A stretch of DNA of 26,121 nucleotides from a virus: IMG/VR virus record IMGVR_UViG_3300030104_005833, positions 1 to 26,121 of that record; one strand, 5' to 3'. The position numbers and the translations under genes were made by a program. The notes beneath the pieces are model-generated. The model ran no database searches and had not been told where the DNA came from. It was given only the letters and a program-made list of their open reading frames with translations. This document shows, one piece after another, positions 20,176 to 26,121 of the stretch; position 1 is the stretch's first letter, and each line of letters opens with the position of its first letter.

Positions 20176-20628
20176 TTAAAAATTTCCTGGTGCTACTTGT
20201 AACACCCGTAAACCTAATGACCTCCACATTTCAACAACCTGGTCTCTGTCATCAATGACAAACTTAACATCATACTTAGGTCTGATATGATCCATATAGA
20301 TCTCAGACTTAATGATGTTATCTTTTCTAAAGTCACCTGCTTTTCTGATATAGAAATCATCATAAGGTACTTCATGGTCTTTCAACCATTGTTTAGTTGC
20401 TTCTTCACAAACACCATCTCTACCTGTAGTAATGATAATTTTGTATTTGTGTTCAAAACCTATTTCTACATCATATTTTCTAGCTATTGCTAAATCTTTA
20501 ACAAGATCAATAACATCTTGATGAGGTCTATCAAGGTGGACTTTGTCCCACTCAAAAGGTCCTCTAATACCTCTCATATCTGCTAACGTCCCGTCAACAT
20601 CTACAATAATTGCTAATTCTTTTTTCAT
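20176..20628 (-). CDS. Stand-alone polynucleotide 3'-phosphatase (PNKP/PseT phosphatase domain, HAD family)
   Basis: The 150-residue protein begins with the HAD motif DVDGTLADM at 10-18 (nucleophile Asp10, general acid Asp12). ITTGRD follows at 66-71, GDFRKDN at 98-104 with the motif III Lys102, and FVIDDRDQVVEMWR at 123-136 with acidic metal ligands, and it ends in LQVAPGNF. The whole matches the C-terminal phosphatase domain of T4 PseT/Pnk, which removes 3'-phosphate or 2',3'-cyclic ends to make 3'-OH ends for ligation. No kinase domain is attached. Its monocistronic setting is between two structured non-coding stretches; the class 2 motif lies 45 bases before its start. Confidence 0.9.
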   Translation of the reverse strand: MKKELAIIVDVDGTLADMRGIRGPFEWDKVHLDRPHQDVIDLVKDLAIARKYDVEIGFEHKYKIIITTGRDGVCEEATKQWLKDHEVPYDDFYIRKAGDFRKDNIIKSEIYMDHIRPKYDVKFVIDDRDQVVEMWRSLGLRVLQVAPGNF

Positions 20629-20706: not shown

Positions 20707-21298
20707 ATTATCAATGACCTACACAAACTTAATATGTAGTTAGCACACGGGTAGAAATAACCCTTCATTGACTTTGCCATACTATGATTGACTGCATAGT
20801 AACAGAATAAGATATAGAAGTTCTACTCTTTCTCAACATCATTGGCCAATGACGCTTCAATTAAGTCTTGCTTCAATTATGCAGGCACATAACATTCACA
20901 AGCCCTTGCGGGATACACAAAGTATTTCTACTTTATGATTAGGCACTTCCAACTATACCATAAGCTTTAGGCATCACACCATTGTCCTGTTCTTTTTTTA
21001 GTTAGAACTTAGCATTTTACGTTTTTCTAGGATAATAGCTCAAATCCCTAAATTTATAAGCAACCACGTATAGCTTACAGACTATACTCTTTACTTATAA
21101 TACTGATAGTTTTAGAACCCTGTAAGGTCTTTGTCCTATCCGCACTTGTGTACAACTGCTCCCCTCACAAGAAAGGTACTGTTTGTACTGCGTTTTGTCT
21201 ATTTCTCACTATAGTTCAACATCTATAGTTTAAAGTCCCGACAACATGGGACTATCTCTAATCAATAGCCGAAGCATATTAATTAGAAATACAATAAC
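20684..21298 (-). ncRNA. Candidate structured non-coding RNA, about 615 nt
   Basis: This stretch has no protein frame above 60 residues. It begins at the predicted +1 of a class 1 promoter (G at 21298) and ends in a terminator at 20684-20706. On the minus strand it contains AGTCCC/GGGACT (21234-21253) and ACTATAG/CTATAGT (21208-21229), whose eight-base loops both begin AUGUUG. It also has CTTGTG/CACAAG (21145-21171) with GGGGAGCAG in the loop, GTATAG/CTATAC (21068-21087), AAAGTA/TACTTT with a GAAA tetraloop (20919-20934) and CCC/GGG with a GCAA tetraloop (20903-20912). The size and ornate folding recall large phage RNAs such as ROOL or GOLLD, but I see no sequence that identifies it as either. 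Confidence 0.65.
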
Positions 21299-21317
21299 AA
21301 AATAAATTAAAAGTAGA
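21298..21317 (-). promoter_or_regulatory. Class 1 phage promoter, variant TCTACTTT-N9-TTG
   Basis: Exact spacing is kept, with one change (T for A at the first base). The G of TTG at 21298 would be +1 of the 0.6 kb RNA. It is preceded by a small hairpin (GAAGC/GCTTC, three-base loop) that overlaps the stop of the 40-residue gene. Confidence 0.65.
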
Positions 21318-21328
21318 TTAAGACGAAG

Positions 21329-21451
21329 CTATGCTTCTTTATCAGAAGCACTTTTATGTTTTACCTTGCGGTAATACTTTTTCTTATTCCGTTGAACCCT
21401 ATGTTTCATAGCGTCCTGAATTTCTTTTTGGGTGACTGTAATTCTTTTCAT
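21329..21451 (-). CDS. Small basic protein, 40 aa
   Basis: The ATG at 21451 is chosen over one at 21514 because it carries the AAACTTATT leader seen at neighbouring starts and because the region before it holds the class 2 motif and leader. The product is strongly basic (QRNKKKYYRKVKHKSASD) and probably binds nucleic acid. Its TAG stop is in the loop of a small hairpin. Confidence 0.65.
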   Translation of the reverse strand: MKRITVTQKEIQDAMKHRVQRNKKKYYRKVKHKSASDKEA

Positions 21452-21484
21452 AATAAGTTTGATTAAGTGGTTAATAAGCATAAT

Positions 21485-21495
21485 ATAAATTGATT
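21485..21495 (-). promoter_or_regulatory. Class 2 motif AATCAATTTAT upstream of the 40-residue gene
   Basis: The minus-strand motif is 44 bases before the ATG at 21451 and is followed by TTATTAACCACTTAA, as in other class 2 leaders. Confidence 0.5.
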
Positions 21496-21514
21496 GGTTA
21501 AATAAATAATTCAA

Positions 21515-21538
21515 AAGTGGTTACTTATGCAACCACTT
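21515..21538 (-). terminator. Terminator overlapping the stop of the 84-residue gene
   Basis: AAGTGGTT pairs perfectly with AACCACTT around an eight-base loop that contains the TAA stop, followed on the minus strand by TTGAATT. Confidence 0.75.
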
Positions 21539-21779
21539 GTTTCTTGATAATACCTATTACAGTATCATATTGATGATTATGACTGCAACATACGTATCCA
21601 TTATCAGGGTCTGATGCACTACATAATACTTCAGAATCATGATGATGAATAACTAATCTACCTGATATAGACCAGCTATCATGTATGCATATTTCTAGAC
21701 CATCATCTTCTTCATATGGTAAAGAGTGTAGATACTTGATGTAATGTTCTGCTTTTTTCTTTGTATTAAATATTATCAT
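21525..21779 (-). CDS. Hypothetical protein, 84 aa
   Basis: Not recognised. It contains HHHDSEVLCSASDPDNGYVC and CSHNHQYD, giving clustered His/Cys residues that might bind a metal, and an N-terminal helix (TKKKAEHYIKYLHSLPYEED). The stop lies in a terminator loop. Its leader has ACTTAAAC but no clear class 1 promoter, so read-through from the large RNA upstream may matter. Confidence 0.7.
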   Translation of the reverse strand: MIIFNTKKKAEHYIKYLHSLPYEEDDGLEICIHDSWSISGRLVIHHHDSEVLCSASDPDNGYVCCSHNHQYDTVIGIIKKQVVA

Positions 21780-21818
21780 AAGTAGAAAGTTTAAGTTTAT
21801 TGTTTAAGTTAATTAAAG

Positions 21819-21854
21819 GTGGTGTTTTAGGCTGACCTGCCTTTCGCACACCAC
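21819..21854 (-). terminator. Compound hairpin closing the 0.96 kb non-coding region
   Basis: GTGGTGT pairs with ACACCAC; inside, AGGC pairs with GCCT, and the tail on the minus strand is CTTTAATT. It has the place of a terminator, although the T-run is short. Confidence 0.6.
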
Positions 21855-21901
21855 AAGCGAAATAGTTTTCATTCAGTTGGATAAACTATAACCTTTATAA
21901 T

Positions 21902-21965
21902 TACCGTCCCACCTGTCCTATGCTGCAGCATTATACAGGTTCCAACCATAGCCTCCGTCACGGTA
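21902..21965 (-). ncRNA. RNA domain A, related to RNA B
   Basis: A TACCGT/ACGGTA stem encloses 52 bases that contain CTATGGTTGG, then ACCTGT/ACAGGT around ATGCTGCAGCAT, and the sequence ATAGGACAGG. RNA B (24128-24205) has the same blocks in the same order, with TACTGCAGTA in place of TGCTGCAGCA, a compensatory change within the stem. Confidence 0.6.
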
Positions 21966-22059
21966 TTAATGCCCTCTACCTCAAGGACAAATTAAGTGGT
22001 AGTTTTTCAGGGTGGTCAACCCATGGTTCAAGATACTACCAAACCATCTATTATAATAG

Positions 22060-22169
22060 TTCTCTTACAAGGTTGCAACCCTTGCCTATATTTCTATAGT
22101 GCCAATGACTACCAAGCTTCTTTGTATAAGTTAATACCGCTATCAAGTACCTGCAATTGGATAAGAGAA
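22060..22169 (-). ncRNA. Four-helix RNA domain within the 0.96 kb region
   Basis: TTCTCTTA (5' side on the minus strand) pairs with TAAGAGAA to close 110 bases. Inside lie CCAAT/ATTGG (22102-22160), CTATA/TATAG with a GAAA tetraloop (22086-22099) and CAAGG/CCTTG with a seven-base loop (22068-22084). This nested arrangement is what a folded multi-branch RNA looks like. The seven-base loop reads GTTGCAA and is not a tRNA T-loop. Confidence 0.6.
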
Positions 22170-22189
22170 TAATACAATAATAATATAAC

Positions 22190-22212
22190 AGTGTGCAATC
22201 TATTGGCACACT
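22190..22212 (-). terminator. Internal terminator-like hairpin
   Basis: AGTGTGC pairs with GCACACT around a nine-base loop; the tail on the minus strand is GTTATATTATTATT. Weak T-run; it could end part of the transcripts from 22778. Confidence 0.5.
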
Positions 22213-22227
22213 AAATAAATAATTAAA

Positions 22228-22293
22228 AATATAGACGTTGTAAAAAGATGGATAGTCAATTTACATTAAGATAACGATATCAACGTCTATATT
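22228..22293 (-). ncRNA. RNA hairpin with 13-base terminal stem and U-run tail
   Basis: AATATAGACGTTG pairs perfectly with CAACGTCTATATT around 40 bases, and the minus strand continues TTTAATTATT. It behaves like a small RNA closed by its own terminator. Confidence 0.6.
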
Positions 22294-22379
22294 AATTGCG
22301 GTAAATGGGTATTAGCACTGTCTTCACTAACTTAATAGTGACCCATTAGTTAACCATACAATTTGTTTAATTCCGGTGA

Positions 22380-22452
22380 ATAAGTCTATGAAACTCTCCT
22401 ACTTACTGTAAGAGATAATAATACTAATGTACTATATAAGACATAGACTTAT
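22380..22452 (-). ncRNA. RNA hairpin with 11-base terminal stem
   Basis: ATAAGTCTATG pairs perfectly with CATAGACTTAT around 51 bases, in which CTCT/AGAG can pair. Chance of an 11-base perfect pairing this close is small even in A/T-rich DNA. Confidence 0.55.
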
Positions 22453-22777
22453 AATAACCTTTATATAGTGATTGGGCTAAAGGCCTTTATGGAATTTTTA
22501 GCCATATAATATATAGTATATATAGCTGTGTAATAATTTTGCATAAAGATTTAGACCAAAGAAAGTGGAATAGTGTTGCTGTGAAACTTTTAGATACACA
22601 CGTAAATGTTTTATATCTCTTTATTTACAAGGGTTTTACAACAAAACCAAACTAAAACCAGTTTAAGTTCCTTGCTTACTACAGAATCTTTTGTCTCCAC
22701 CGTGTGAGAGAAGTAGACTCATTGCTTGATTATCAAATAGTTACAAAATAATCTTTTGTAAAGAAAAACACACAACA

Positions 22778-22797
22778 CAATATCAAATAAAAGTAGT
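22778..22797 (-). promoter_or_regulatory. Class 1 phage promoter ACTACTTT-N9-TTG
   Basis: Perfect match with nine-base spacing. Predicted +1 is G at 22778, driving the 0.96 kb non-coding region. A six-base hairpin with a three-base loop lies eight bases upstream (22806-22820), as at the 23286 promoter. Confidence 0.75.
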
Positions 22798-22842
22798 CAA
22801 AAGACGTTTCTGAAAGAAACCTAAAATACAATAAAAATAAAA

Positions 22843-22866
22843 GACAAGATACCGAAGTACCTTGCC
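22843..22866 (-). terminator. Strong terminator with UUCG tetraloop
   Basis: GGCAAGGTAC pairs with GTATCTTGTC (two G-T pairs) around TTCG, followed on the minus strand by TTTTATTTTTATT. It ends the 123-residue gene. Confidence 0.93.
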
Positions 22867-22879
22867 TTTATGGTTAGCA

Positions 22880-23251
22880 TTAAACAGACATATCTGCTTT
22901 AGCTGTCTCCTCAACACCGCTATAATCAAAGTCATCATCAGATGCAGATATAGCAGAAGCTAAATGAGATACTTGTATGAAAGGAGTTTTACCATTTCTT
23001 TTCTGAACGGTAGCTCTATAAGAACCTCCTATCTCAACTCCCAACTGGAAATTGTTCTCATACATACAAGCCTGACGAGTTACTAATCCTTTAGCACTCT
23101 CAAACTCAATAGTACAACTTCTCCAAGAAGTACCATTCTCATTGAGTCTTGGCTCATCAGCAATCCATTTTAGCTTTGCACCATAAATAGTTGCTTCCTT
23201 TACTAACTCTCCGCTTGGTAGAGTCTTGTTTTCAAATTTTGAAACTGACAT
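22880..23251 (-). CDS. Hypothetical protein, 123 aa, possibly OB-fold
   Basis: The strand-rich body (IYGAKLKWIADEPRL; SCTIEFESAKGLVTRQACMY; GGSYRATVQKRNGKTPFIQV) and an acidic tail (SDDDFDYSGVEETAKAD) are compatible with a small single-strand DNA-binding or OB-fold protein, but no motif proves it. It is a monocistronic unit: a class 1 promoter variant at 23286-23305 and a strong terminator at 22843-22866. Confidence 0.72.
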   Translation of the reverse strand: MSVSKFENKTLPSGELVKEATIYGAKLKWIADEPRLNENGTSWRSCTIEFESAKGLVTRQACMYENNFQLGVEIGGSYRATVQKRNGKTPFIQVSHLASAISASDDDFDYSGVEETAKADMSV

Positions 23252-23285
23252 AATAAATTAAATTTTAAGTTGAACAATAAATTAT

Positions 23286-23305
23286 CCAACACAATTAAAA
23301 GTAGC
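23286..23305 (-). promoter_or_regulatory. Class 1 phage promoter, variant GCTACTTT-N9-TGG
   Basis: Two substitutions from the consensus with spacing kept. Predicted +1 near 23286-23287, 35 bases before the ATG at 23251. It is preceded at eight bases by GTTTAT/ATAAAC (23314-23328) and further by the palindromic hairpin GCTGAGC/GCTCAGC (about 23331-23348). Confidence 0.6.
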
Positions 23306-23386
23306 TAAAAGCCGTTTATGAAATAAACTTAGCTGAGCTTGCTCAGCGTTATACTAAACTATCTACCCCGGAGGTGTCAAAAAAAT

Positions 23387-23406
23387 AAGGGGAACTTAAT
23401 CCCCTT
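23387..23406 (-). terminator. Strong terminator after the 103-residue gene
   Basis: AAGGGGA pairs with TCCCCTT, followed on the minus strand by ATTTTTTT. The TAA stop of the gene sits at the base of the stem. Confidence 0.9.
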
Positions 23407-23716
23407 AAAAGCTTAGTATGACATCATGTCCATTCAATCCTGGATGGCTCTCAACTTGTTTTGCAAACTCATAGTTGTTAGTTGTTAAAATCACAATACC
23501 ATTATCTCCATAGTACTCATCCATATGTTCTTTAGCAGAAAACCAGTTATTAAACTTATATATTCTGCTTGAACCATAAACTTGAGTATCTACTTTATAG
23601 TTAAATCCATCCTTGACCTTAGAGATTTCTTTATGTAAATCCCATTGTTTCTTTTTTAAGTCTGTGATTTCTTTAACTAATTTTTCAAGCTCTTTTAGCT
23701 TTTCATACTTTTCCAT
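23405..23716 (-). CDS. Hypothetical protein with N-terminal coiled coil, 103 aa
   Basis: Residues 1-34 (KLKELEKLVKEITDLKKKQW) form a basic coiled coil; the rest is a mixed domain (SSRIYKFNNWFSAKEHMDEY; NGIVILTTNNYEFAKQVES). Its 5' leader carries structured RNA C (23747-23820) starting at the class 1 promoter +1. Function unknown. Confidence 0.72.
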   Translation of the reverse strand: MEKYEKLKELEKLVKEITDLKKKQWDLHKEISKVKDGFNYKVDTQVYGSSRIYKFNNWFSAKEHMDEYYGDNGIVILTTNNYEFAKQVESHPGLNGHDVILSF

Positions 23717-23746
23717 AATAAATAATTTAAGGTTAATAAAAATTGT

Positions 23747-23820
23747 GGGACAGATAGTAAGCAGGTAATTACTTCTGCTCCCCTATCTCTGTGCATGCCC
23801 TTTAGATAGTTAACTGTCCC
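23747..23820 (-). ncRNA. Structured leader RNA C, 74 nt
   Basis: GGGACAG pairs with CTGTCCC as a terminal stem; inside, CTATCT pairs with AGATAG and GCAG pairs with CTGC, forming a three-way junction. The first base of the stem (G at 23820) is the G of the TTG of the class 1 promoter, so the stem starts at +1. The 3' side continues ACAATTTTTATT and leads to the ATG at 23716. It could be an attenuator, a 5' end protector or a processed small RNA. Its length is tRNA-like but no T-loop or anticodon arm is found. Confidence 0.65.
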
Positions 23821-23839
23821 AATAAAAATAAAAAGTAGT
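23820..23839 (-). promoter_or_regulatory. Class 1 phage promoter ACTACTTT-N9-TTG
   Basis: Perfect match; predicted +1 G at 23820 coincides with the first base of the terminal stem of RNA C. Confidence 0.8.
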
Positions 23840-23859
23840 TAGGGTTAAAGAAGAAGAAA

Positions 23860-23874
23860 CCCGCATAATGCGGG
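23860..23874 (-). terminator. Terminator after the 62-residue gene
   Basis: CCCGCA pairs with TGCGGG around a three-base loop, followed on the minus strand by TTTCTTCTTCTTT, 6 bases after the stop. Confidence 0.75.
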
Positions 23875-23880
23875 CTAACC

Positions 23881-24069
23881 TTAATTCAATGAGGTCAAGA
23901 TATGTCCATTAGACAGAGCATCATTGATTAACAGATACTCATACTTGATTTCCTCAAGCTGACTTTCTGTACAATCTTCAAGCTCTTCTCTTGAAACTTT
24001 ACTTTCTTCTGTTACTGGTATTACTCTTTGAAGATCCAGTATATCTTCTATCAAATGCTTAACATACAT
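23881..24069 (-). CDS. Small hypothetical acidic protein, 62 aa
   Basis: Helical and acidic (VKHLIEDILDLQRVIPVTEE; SREELEDCTESQLEEIKYEY); not recognised. It starts 27 bases after the predicted +1 of its own class 1 promoter and ends in a terminator. Confidence 0.7.
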   Translation of the reverse strand: MYVKHLIEDILDLQRVIPVTEESKVSREELEDCTESQLEEIKYEYLLINDALSNGHILTSLN

Positions 24070-24095
24070 AGCTAATAAATTTAAAGGTTAATAAT

Positions 24096-24115
24096 CAAAA
24101 AAAATAAAAAGTAGT
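24096..24115 (-). promoter_or_regulatory. Class 1 phage promoter ACTACTTT-N9-TTG
   Basis: Perfect match; predicted +1 G at 24096, giving a 26-base leader to the ATG at 24069 that contains TTATTAACCTTTAAATT. Confidence 0.8.
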
Positions 24116-24127
24116 ATTGCAAAAAAA

Positions 24128-24205
24128 GTTATGCTGCATCGGCCCGTCCTATACTGCAGTACTTAACAGACTTCTGACCACACTCAACCATACCCGCAGC
24201 ATAAC
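24128..24205 (-). ncRNA. Structured RNA B, 78 nt, with own terminator
   Basis: GTTATGCTGC pairs perfectly with GCAGCATAAC as a 10-base terminal stem, followed by seven Ts on the minus strand (24121-24127). Inside are GTATGGTTG, TACTGCAGTA and TAGGACGGG, the same blocks as in RNA A. It follows RNA D directly, separated by five Ts, so both come from the promoter at 24367. Confidence 0.72.
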
Positions 24206-24210
24206 AAAAA

Positions 24211-24367
24211 GAGTAGTATCACAGGCGTACATTCCTGCTCCTATGTAACTGAAGATAACCCAGCCATTTAGTTATCATCCTTAAGGCTTTACTCAAAGAT
24301 ATTACATATGTCTCACAATTCCCCCCTCCTGCTAGCTAGGCATAGGTCAAGTGTTGGCATACTACTC
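24211..24367 (-). ncRNA. Structured RNA D, 157 nt, with own terminator
   Basis: GAGTAGTAT pairs perfectly with ATACTACTC as terminal stem, followed by TTTTT on the minus strand. The first G is +1 of the class 1 promoter. Inside, CCTATG pairs with CATAGG, GATAAC with GTTATC and CAGG with CCTG. A C-to-G biased patch (AGGAGGGGGG) lies in the 5' third. No coding frame fits. Not recognised as any known RNA. Confidence 0.72.
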
Positions 24368-24386
24368 AAAAAAAATAAAAAGTAGT
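24367..24386 (-). promoter_or_regulatory. Class 1 phage promoter ACTACTTT-N9-TTG
   Basis: Perfect match; predicted +1 G at 24367 is the first base of the terminal stem of RNA D. The unit it drives holds no protein gene before the next promoter at 24096. Confidence 0.82.
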
Positions 24387-24387
24387 A

Positions 24388-24409
24388 CTGCCCTACATTA
24401 GTAAGGCAG
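24388..24409 (-). terminator. Terminator hairpin overlapping the stop of the 53-residue gene
   Basis: CTGCCTTAC pairs with GTAGGGCAG (one G-T pair) around TAAT, which holds the TAA stop. The T-run comes six bases later and is shared with the next promoter. Confidence 0.7.
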
Positions 24410-24559
24410 CATAGATATAAGCAATTGATGCTCAATTTGCTTTAACACATCTATAGAATCCTTCTCAAGTTCCTCCCTTGTATAAGGTTCAGGAGAATCT
24501 ATAAGAAGAAAATTGTCTTTTTGTAACTCTAAAATTGAGTTGATTAGTTCTTGTTTCAT
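24398..24559 (-). CDS. Small hypothetical protein, 53 aa
   Basis: An ATG at 24559 opens 53 codons: two helices (MKQELINSILELQKDNFLL; TREELEKDSIDVLKQIEHQL) joined by SPEPY. It has its own class 1 promoter, a 65-base leader with an attenuator-like hairpin, the ATTAACCTTAAAT leader block and a stop inside a terminator loop, all as in its neighbours. Confidence 0.75.
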   Translation of the reverse strand: MKQELINSILELQKDNFLLIDSPEPYTREELEKDSIDVLKQIEHQLLISMLPY

Positions 24560-24583
24560 AATAAATTATTTAAGGTTAATATC

Positions 24584-24606
24584 AAAAAAATAAGCGAACC
24601 CACGCT
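24584..24606 (-). promoter_or_regulatory. Attenuator-like hairpin in the leader of the 53-residue gene
   Basis: On the minus strand AGCG pairs with CGCT around six bases, followed by TATTTTTTT, between +1 (24625) and the ATG (24559). The stem is short; an alternative pairing of AACC with GGTT further upstream would break it. Confidence 0.45.
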
Positions 24607-24624
24607 ATCATCTGCAGGTTGACT

Positions 24625-24644
24625 CAAGAAAAATAAAAAGTAGT
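24625..24644 (-). promoter_or_regulatory. Class 1 phage promoter ACTACTTT-N9-TTG
   Basis: Perfect match; predicted +1 G at 24625 for the 53-residue gene. Confidence 0.8.
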
Positions 24645-24666
24645 AAGCGGTTATACAAAAAATAAC

Positions 24667-24684
24667 GGGAATTATATTATTCCC
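24667..24684 (-). terminator. Terminator overlapping the stop of the 43-residue gene
   Basis: GGGAAT pairs with ATTCCC around AATATA, which carries the start of the TAA stop, followed on the minus strand by GTTATTTTTT. Confidence 0.82.
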
Positions 24685-24803
24685 ATTATTCCAAGTACAC
24701 ATGGTACTATTATACATAAGTCTATAACAGACGTTAATGTAGTAGCAAGTACTTTCTCTCCAGTGCTACCTCTGAAGTCCTTTAATAAATATATAGTTAA
24801 CAT
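24672..24803 (-). CDS. Small membrane protein, 43 aa
   Basis: An ATG at 24803 opens 43 codons; residues about 22-43 (TTLTSVIDLCIIVPCVLGIM) form one hydrophobic span at the C-terminus after a polar start (MLTIYLLKDFRGSTGEK). It has its own class 1 promoter at 24835 and a terminator that overlaps its stop. Confidence 0.7.
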   Translation of the reverse strand: MLTIYLLKDFRGSTGEKVLATTLTSVIDLCIIVPCVLGIMGII

Positions 24804-24834
24804 AGTTTTAGTTTTAAATTAATATTAAGGTTAT

Positions 24835-24854
24835 CAAGAAGAATATAAAGTAGT
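24835..24854 (-). promoter_or_regulatory. Class 1 phage promoter ACTACTTT-N9-TTG
   Basis: Perfect match; predicted +1 G at 24835, giving a 31-base leader with ATAACCTTAA before the ATG at 24803. Confidence 0.8.
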
Positions 24855-24873
24855 TGGGGTTATACAAAAAGAT

Positions 24874-24894
24874 ATATCAGAATTTATCTGATAT
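24874..24894 (-). terminator. Terminator overlapping the stop of the 112-residue gene
   Basis: ATATCAGA pairs with TCTGATAT around a five-base loop; the TGA stop is in the 3' arm. The minus strand continues ATCTTTTT. Confidence 0.82.
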
Positions 24895-25215
24895 AGTCTT
24901 TACTAAGTTATTCTGGTGTATTTTATTCCATACATCTTTGGATATTCCAAATCTGTATTTATAATGCCAGTTACCTGTATCTGATGTGTAGTCATATTCT
25001 ACAATCTTGAGGTTACCATGGTTAGATATAACTCTCATTTGAATATATCTTTCCATATCTCCCATATTTGACATGAAGTCATTATAGATTTCAACAACTT
25101 TATCATCATGAGATACATGTTGGATTACTTTAGGACCCCAACTACGTACTGTTGTGTGCATATCATTTGAGGTGTTAAGTTTTGTGCAATCAAATTGCGT
25201 GTAAAAATTTGTCAT
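24877..25215 (-). CDS. Hypothetical protein, 112 aa
   Basis: Not recognised. It is soluble with mixed strands (MERYIQMRVISNHGNLKIVE; DTGNWHYKYRFGISKDVW), suggesting a single alpha/beta domain. It has its own class 1 promoter (+1 at 25251) and ends in a terminator that contains its stop. Confidence 0.75.
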   Translation of the reverse strand: MTNFYTQFDCTKLNTSNDMHTTVRSWGPKVIQHVSHDDKVVEIYNDFMSNMGDMERYIQMRVISNHGNLKIVEYDYTSDTGNWHYKYRFGISKDVWNKIHQNNLVKTISDKF

Positions 25216-25250
25216 TATTTTAAATTTAAGGTTATGTGAATAATATTATT

Positions 25251-25270
25251 CAAAAGAGAAATAAAGTAGT
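25251..25270 (-). promoter_or_regulatory. Class 1 phage promoter ACTACTTT-N9-TTG
   Basis: Perfect match; predicted +1 G at 25251, 36 bases before the ATG at 25215, with ATAACCTTAAATT in the leader. Confidence 0.82.
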
Positions 25271-25282
25271 TATGAAAAAACA

Positions 25283-25299
25283 TAGAGACTTAGTCTCCA
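25283..25299 (-). terminator. Terminator with the stop codon as its loop
   Basis: TGGAGAC pairs with GTCTCTA (one G-T pair) around TAA, which is the stop of the 26-residue gene; TGTTTTTT follows on the minus strand. Confidence 0.8.
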
Positions 25300-25370
25300 T
25301 ATTTATTATTTAGTTTATACTGAAAGTATAATAGAATCATTACCAGAATTGTAGTAGCTATTGTATTCAT
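25290..25370 (-). CDS. Single-span membrane microprotein, 26 aa
   Basis: The ATG at 25370 overlaps the TGA of the upstream membrane gene as ATGA, and the TAA stop is the loop of a terminator. The product is one hydrophobic span (NTIATTILVMILLYFQYKL) with a polar end. The two junctions support translation despite its size. Confidence 0.68.
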   Translation of the reverse strand: MNTIATTILVMILLYFQYKLNNKYGD

Positions 25371-25585
25371 GACGTTACAATTTTATCTCTGCATGCCATT
25401 GCACCTCTGAATAATCCTACTGATAGGGTTACAAAGAATATGCATGCAAATGTTCCAGCCATCATACCATACTTAGGACCTAAAGAGATTAAGTCAAGTA
25501 TACCATATAAGCTTACTACTCCGGTTAATATAGCAAGTATCATATACGTATGATACATTACTGTTAATTGTGTTTTTCTTTTCAT
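25367..25585 (-). CDS. Small membrane protein with two spans, 72 aa
   Basis: Hydrophobic segments at about 9-31 (MYHTYMILAILTGVVSLYGI) and 42-60 (GTFACIFFVTLSVGLF) flank a short loop; both ends are basic. It is the first gene after the class 1 promoter at 25618 and is ATGA-coupled to the 26-residue microprotein. Early phage membrane proteins may alter the host envelope; unproven here. Confidence 0.72.
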   Translation of the reverse strand: MKRKTQLTVMYHTYMILAILTGVVSLYGILDLISLGPKYGMMAGTFACIFFVTLSVGLFRGAMACRDKIVTS

Positions 25586-25617
25586 TTTATTTGGTTTTAA
25601 TTAAACATTTATATTTT

Positions 25618-25637
25618 CAAGCTAGATATAAAGTAGT
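25618..25637 (-). promoter_or_regulatory. Class 1 phage promoter ACTACTTT-N9-TTG
   Basis: Perfect match; predicted +1 G at 25618 for the 72/26-residue membrane gene pair. Its ACTACTTT is also part of the 3' arm and tail of the terminator at 25632-25658. Confidence 0.8.
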
Positions 25638-25658
25638 TGTGATGATGAATGAACTACT
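25632..25658 (-). terminator. Terminator of the first leftward unit
   Basis: AGTAGTT pairs perfectly with AACTACT around 13 bases, followed on the minus strand by TTATAT. It overlaps the next promoter. Confidence 0.7.
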
Positions 25659-25766
25659 ATGTATATGTATATTAAACATACACACAGTAGAATCCACTCC
25701 AGTGACACCATGGTCACCATGTAACCAAACAAACTAAATCTTTCCAGCTATGAAAAAATTATTATC
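25632..25766 (-). ncRNA. First leftward transcript, about 135 nt, non-coding or encoding a micropeptide
   Basis: It runs from the class 1 +1 (G at 25766) to the terminator at 25632-25658. It contains a GTGAC/GTCAC hairpin near 25700-25715. A 32-codon frame from 25720 to 25622 would encode a hydrophobic peptide (SLEWILLCVCLIYIYIVV), but its end runs through the terminator and the next promoter, so I am not sure it is used. Confidence 0.5.
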
Positions 25767-25785
25767 AATAGCAAAAAAAAGTAGT
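25766..25785 (-). promoter_or_regulatory. Class 1 phage promoter ACTACTTT-N9-TTG, rightmost copy
   Basis: Perfect match; predicted +1 G at 25766. It is the outermost leftward promoter, 16 bases from the G-rich tract. Confidence 0.8.
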
Positions 25786-26060: not shown

Positions 26061-26121
26061 ATGCCAAGAGGTAAAGGAACATATGGATCTAAAGTAGGTA
26101 GACCATCCAAAAAAAAGAAAA
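26061..26121 (+). CDS. First rightward gene, cut off by window edge
   Basis: An ATG at 26061 opens a frame reading MPRGKGTYGSKVGRPSKKKK to the edge. The very basic Gly/Lys/Arg start resembles short conserved proteins of unknown function that open the other arm of some Bacteroidota and marine phages. Only 20 residues are visible, so the length and role cannot be judged. Confidence 0.65.
   Translation, partial: MPRGKGTYGSKVGRPSKKKK

Follow-up and report, generated by a model that had tools for sequence, protein, structure and literature searches.

The window analysed here is the whole 26 kb IMG/VR record (26,121 nt), a fragment of a crAss-like phage genome (the window phage), and the array of boxes, genes and RNAs described below lies on its minus strand. 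The motif ACTACTTT-N9-TTG occurs in the window nine times as an exact copy, on this strand only, with the G of TTG at 25766, 25618, 25251, 24835, 24625, 24367, 24096, 23820, and 22778, where 0.03 copies are expected by chance (sd 0.17, maximum 1, in 100 dinucleotide shuffles). Two near copies on the same strand, TCTACTTT...TTG at 21298 and GCTACTTT...TGG at 23286, bring the number to 11. Positions, strand and near matches are as given in the first-pass annotation, which had proposed a promoter family standing at the starts of genes and RNA units; this placement also holds, the copies preceding early genes or structured RNAs and none of the 11 lying within an ORF of at least 80 aa. A further CTACTTT at 26091–26097 lacks the TTG and is apparently coding DNA at the start of the opposite arm.

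The array opens with box 1 (25766–25785), behind which the first ORF of at least 35 aa begins 181 nt downstream. Box 2 (25618–25637) precedes an early gene of 72 aa (25367–25585; ATG at +33), box 3 (25251–25270) an early gene of 112 aa (24877–25215; ATG at +36), and box 4 (24835–24854) a 43 aa ORF (ATG at +32). The exact copy in box 5 (24625–24644) is followed by a small hairpin RNA or leader with a T-run (24580–24625) and an early gene of 53 aa (24398–24559). Box 6 (24367–24386) adjoins a terminator-like hairpin (24386–24411), and with the G of its TTG begins a structured RNA of 157 nt (24211–24367) having a perfect 9 bp terminal stem; a second structured RNA (24128–24205), with the terminal stem GTTATGCTGC...GCAGCATAAC, has no box of its own. 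Then come box 7 (24096–24115) with an early gene of 62 aa (23881–24069; ATG at +27) and a terminator-like hairpin with a T-rich tail (23858–23876), box 8 (23820–23839), again an exact copy, with a leader RNA (23746–23821) and an early gene of 103 aa (23405–23716), and box 9 (23286–23305), a near copy, with an early gene of 123 aa (22880–23251; ATG at +35). Box 10 (22778–22797) is followed by roughly 1 kb of RNA-like DNA that codes for no protein, and box 11 (21298–21317), the other near copy, opens a non-coding stretch.

The distance from the presumed start to the ATG is thus 27–36 nt in five units, and it is 66 and 104 nt in two units with structured leaders, while boxes 6, 10, and 11 are followed by RNA-like sequence with no ORF of at least 35 aa within 260 nt. 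Terminator-like sites number 10 over both strands of the region together (1.8 expected); six of the 10 are on the strand of the array, where such hairpins separate the units. Beside the early region, at 20176–20628, lies the gene of a polynucleotide kinase phosphatase-type HAD protein (PF25109, E 1.3e-46).

The RNA stems bear on where transcription would start. At 24367 the terminal stem GAGTAGTAT/ATACTACTC is 9 bp long and perfect, and its 5′ base is the G of TTG. The first-pass annotation had taken the probable +1 to be fixed in this way both here and at 23820; the first case stands, while at 23820 the stem GGGACAG/CTGTCCC reaches one base further upstream as the 8 bp stem TGGGACAG/CTGTCCCA and so starts at base 11–12 after the 8-mer, the G not being uniquely the first paired base. 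Base 12 after the 8-mer is the first base of the terminal stem in the RNA at 24367, in its homologue in the related genome G002 and in a different RNA of the relative G003, and these three genomes together support, without proving, the G of TTG as +1.

Some smaller sequence elements recur in the same non-coding DNA. CTGCAGYATAGGACRGG is common to several non-coding RNAs of the clade (window 24128–24205 and 21920–21950; G003 82683), and TTCACCGG, whose flanks are conserved, is repeated in non-coding DNA of the early region in the window and its close relatives (window about 22373–22385, G002 13553, G003 82310), three times in the relative G004 (75491, 75644, and 75930); it is possibly a processing or regulatory signal. 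No part of the window matched Rfam at the gathering threshold.

Relatives were found among viral contigs by their DnaB, which is 72–93% identical to that of the window (93% in G003). They comprise G003 (102 kb) and G004 (107 kb), both near-complete and about 90% identical over the replication genes, and the more distant G007–G014. Both G003 and G004 carry a terminase (phrog_6681), a portal (phrog_6547) and a major head protein (phrog_11589) of crAss type, by which they are crAss-like (Crassvirales-related) phages. The best named terminase matches are crAss-like phages at only about 26% identity, and the relatives are therefore distant from the named ones; terminase, portal and capsid are all of crAss-like type and far from named families. 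Their genomes are organized in two divergent arms, with the array at the head of the early/replication arm.

In the same early region the relatives have an equivalent array with another consensus, which is uniform within each genome: GACAACTTT in G002, GACCTCTCT or GACATCTCT in G003, G004, and G015, AACAGCTCA in G009, AACCATTTT in G010 and G011, and TTTTTACTAAYAATAAA in G013. De novo motif search of each relative's early region gave one dominant array on one strand, with scores above all eight dinucleotide-shuffled controls in seven of seven genomes (observed 105–225; best shuffled 79–116). An unanchored finder for wide motifs returned uninformative matches in coding DNA and was replaced. A matrix built for one lineage finds the sites of that lineage and hardly any others, the exception being a partial overlap between the window phage and G002. 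The commonest box of the window, searched for as an exact pattern in viral contigs, gave no matches, because the relatives use other boxes.

Equal scatter of the motif over the genome had been named beforehand as the observation that would speak against promoters. Genome-wide scans found six matches in G003, five in G004, 12 in G011 and 13 in G013, all early; in G010 there were 11 early matches and one weak match on the reverse strand, and in G009 weak extra matches, three on the forward and two on the reverse strand. In the five near-complete genomes (92–118 kb), essentially all strong matches lie on one strand in an early region of a few kb, where the boxes precede early genes or RNAs and nothing else. 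It should be noted that the same finder gave no clear array in G007 and only a weak one in G008, which we count against the explanation proposed below, that it was swamped by repeats in coding DNA in G006 and G007, and that it yielded no firm array in G016 and G017.

Orthologous units show most directly how the boxes differ. For example, the 62 aa gene and the 157 nt RNA match G002 at the DNA level, and in G002 each has that genome's own box, GACAACTTT in the case of the 62 aa gene; box 1 is orthologous to a G002 box reading AGACAGCTTTTTTTTGAGATTG. The hairpin RNA at 24625 has a counterpart in G003 (81382) with the same structure and compensating changes, again behind G003's own box. The genes for 112 and 123 aa, too, have counterparts behind own-genome boxes, matched by position and by eye: the former resembles the G004 ORF 74280–74588, which has a GGACCTCTCT box, and ORFs at the position of the latter lie behind GACATCTCT in G003 (81550) and behind GACATCTTT in G002. 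Since the box in front of an orthologous gene or RNA is the one specific to the genome in which it stands, the boxes change in concert, as would be expected of one coevolving reader.

When the window phage, G002, G003, G009, and G010 are aligned by geometry, the sites read R-A-C-N-N-Y-T-Y-W, N9 and then a purine as the start; as the alignment register was fixed by eye, the pooled AC-NN-YT core arises partly by construction. ACTACTTT is the version belonging to the window's lineage, and the common geometry is about [R]AC-NN-YTYW-N9-start. Between G003 (81243–81500) and G004 (74238–74600) whole units of box, gene or RNA, and terminator are replaced, which suggests cassette exchange.

A candidate for the reader is found in the relatives, which encode a giant protein (about 4000 aa) with the DxDxD motif. 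A profile of seven homologues of this ORF matches the virion RNA polymerase of phage phi14:2 (PDB 6VR4) with an E value of 6.9e-18, and the match covers the catalytic motif in the stretch K.GSDFDVDK, so that the relatives possess the giant DxDxD RNA polymerase of crAss-like phages. The phi14:2 enzyme transcribes early genes in a rifampicin-resistant manner (PMC10136315), and the RNA polymerases of crAss phages evolve unusually fast (PMC7886860). The giant polymerases are 95.7% identical in a pair of genomes with the same box and 32–52% identical between lineages with different boxes, whereas the DnaB of these genomes shares 72–93% with that of the window; the independent polymerase-box lineages are only a few, which counts against the explanation below. 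The gene is absent from the window, which is a fragment, and a search for the polymerase contig of the window phage itself returned only G003 and G004. If polymerase and boxes coevolve, the polymerases of the window phage and of G003 are predicted to have diverged in spite of the 93% identical DnaB, their boxes being different.

Our reading is that the 11 boxes serve a crAss-like phage as its early promoters and that they are read by its virion RNA polymerase. The array, its geometry and confinement, the joint lineage-specific change of the boxes and the polymerase gene of the relatives are seen in the sequences themselves; activity as promoters, the exact +1 and the reader are deduced. That they function as promoters at all is very probable; that the virion RNA polymerase is their reader we infer with a probability of roughly 0.7. 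The promoter would be an element of about 20 bp, consisting of a recognition box of 8–9 bp and nine A/T-rich bases, and transcription would begin around base 12 behind the 8-mer. Each element would drive a short unit for a single small protein or structured RNA, and most of these units would end in a hairpin terminator. As the most likely reader we propose the giant single-chain DxDxD RNA polymerase of the phage itself, which would be carried in the virion and be injected along with the DNA; since this polymerase evolves fast, the promoter consensus would drift, every promoter in the genome following the polymerase. The first-pass annotation had suggested a phage-encoded reader, and two findings speak for it: close relatives have different boxes and yet all copies change at once, and a homologue of the crAss-like virion RNA polymerase is encoded in the relatives.

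An unlikely alternative is that the host RNA polymerase is redirected by a coevolving phage factor, either sigma-like or sigma-appropriating, that has escaped recognition. Such a factor would likewise change all boxes in concert, and among some Crassvirales cr56_1 has an ECF-type sigma factor in its early arm. However, the Sigma70 region 2 and region 4 families (Sigma70_r2, r4_2) were absent from seven genomes of the clade in a search that found them in cr56_1 and whose positive control responded, although a divergent sigma-like factor may be present. Moreover, no second conserved, −35-like element was found upstream of the boxes, and a sigma-like factor serving the very first genes would itself have to be injected.

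It is improbable that the repeats are not promoters at all and serve instead as RNA-processing signals, U-tracts of terminators or DNA-binding sites for replication or packaging. The window box is T-rich, one copy abuts the hairpin at 24386–24411, and the structured RNA at 24128–24205 has no box of its own, so that processing or read-through must occur there. Nevertheless, the boxes stand on one strand only and at a fixed distance from the ATG and from the 5′ ends of RNA stems, the terminators are mostly upstream of the boxes and separate from them, and the boxes of G003, G009, and G010 are not T-runs. Ordinary primary-sigma promoters of Bacteroidota in an A/T-rich phage, which TACTTT calls to mind through its loose likeness to part of TAnnTTTG, are highly improbable, since the −7 element TAnnTTTG is found at none of 55 sites, TTTG at −33 is sporadic and the box differs by lineage in concert, in agreement with the earlier remark that the motif is not the Bacteroidota sigma consensus.

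If the preferred reading, recognition by the giant virion polymerase, is correct, the arrays are the recognition sequence of a widespread, poorly understood class of polymerases, whose promoter specificity becomes directly testable. In uncultured phages they would also allow immediate-early genes and small RNAs to be recognised by sequence, and they would supply a natural set of polymerases, each with its matching promoter. Beyond this, it seems somewhat more likely than not that we are dealing with the promoter class of crAss-like virion RNA polymerases in which the polymerase and all early promoters shift together between close relatives, giving private lineage codes, possibly helped by swaps of promoter-gene-terminator cassettes. 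None of the literature examined, the original phi14:2 paper being outside it, describes a promoter of a crAss-like virion RNA polymerase.

Among named crAss-like phages, cr56_1 and cr4_1 have only weak array candidates. TGWCAANNNTGTGGGGCKTA occurs only in the early arm and in few copies (NC_055893, cr4_1, 71988, 74393, and 74656, minus strand; NC_055890, cr56_1, 3849) and is possibly a counterpart array. In crAss001 the repeated GANTTACTTCA near the TROVE gene was considered as an array and dropped, its copies lying inside tRNA-like sequences and being read as structured inserts. Beside the same gene (MH675552, 96.1–96.8 kb, minus strand) a repeat of about 45 nt, GUUC-hairpin-...GANUUACUUCA, has the look of a structured insert or of an intron-like one; some of its copies are in tRNA-like sequences.

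Promoters of T7-type and other phage RNA polymerases are compact blocks of about 20 bp immediately before +1, and coevolution of reader and promoter is known for them. The boxes resemble them in being a single compact block of about 20 bp, but the genomes tested have no T7-type RNA polymerase gene (PF00940 absent in five genomes; T7 control at 9.9e-110). Phage N4 has few early promoters per genome, which are hairpin promoters read by an injected virion RNA polymerase. The number of early promoters and the proposed injected reader are alike here, whereas a conserved inverted repeat of N4 type is lacking, a 5 bp hairpin being present in only seven of 73 sites and at differing positions.

A closer likeness is that to the Thermus phage P23-45, in which the virion RNA polymerase gp96 is associated with an AT-rich motif in front of the pre-early genes, a motif absent from relatives without that polymerase (PMC10770324). 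The polymerase of P23-45 is fused to the tape measure protein (PMC10770324), and its motif is similar among the relatives of that phage, whereas here the boxes differ between lineages in concert. In phi14:2, although its virion RNA polymerase was studied, the same finder revealed no convincing comparable array, which counts against our explanation, and the polymerase has about 2200 aa there versus about 4000 aa in the relatives of the window phage. The likeness to phi14:2 consists in the homologous polymerase with its catalytic DxDxD motif encoded by these relatives and in the position of the array where the early/replication arm begins, on the opposite side from the structural arm.
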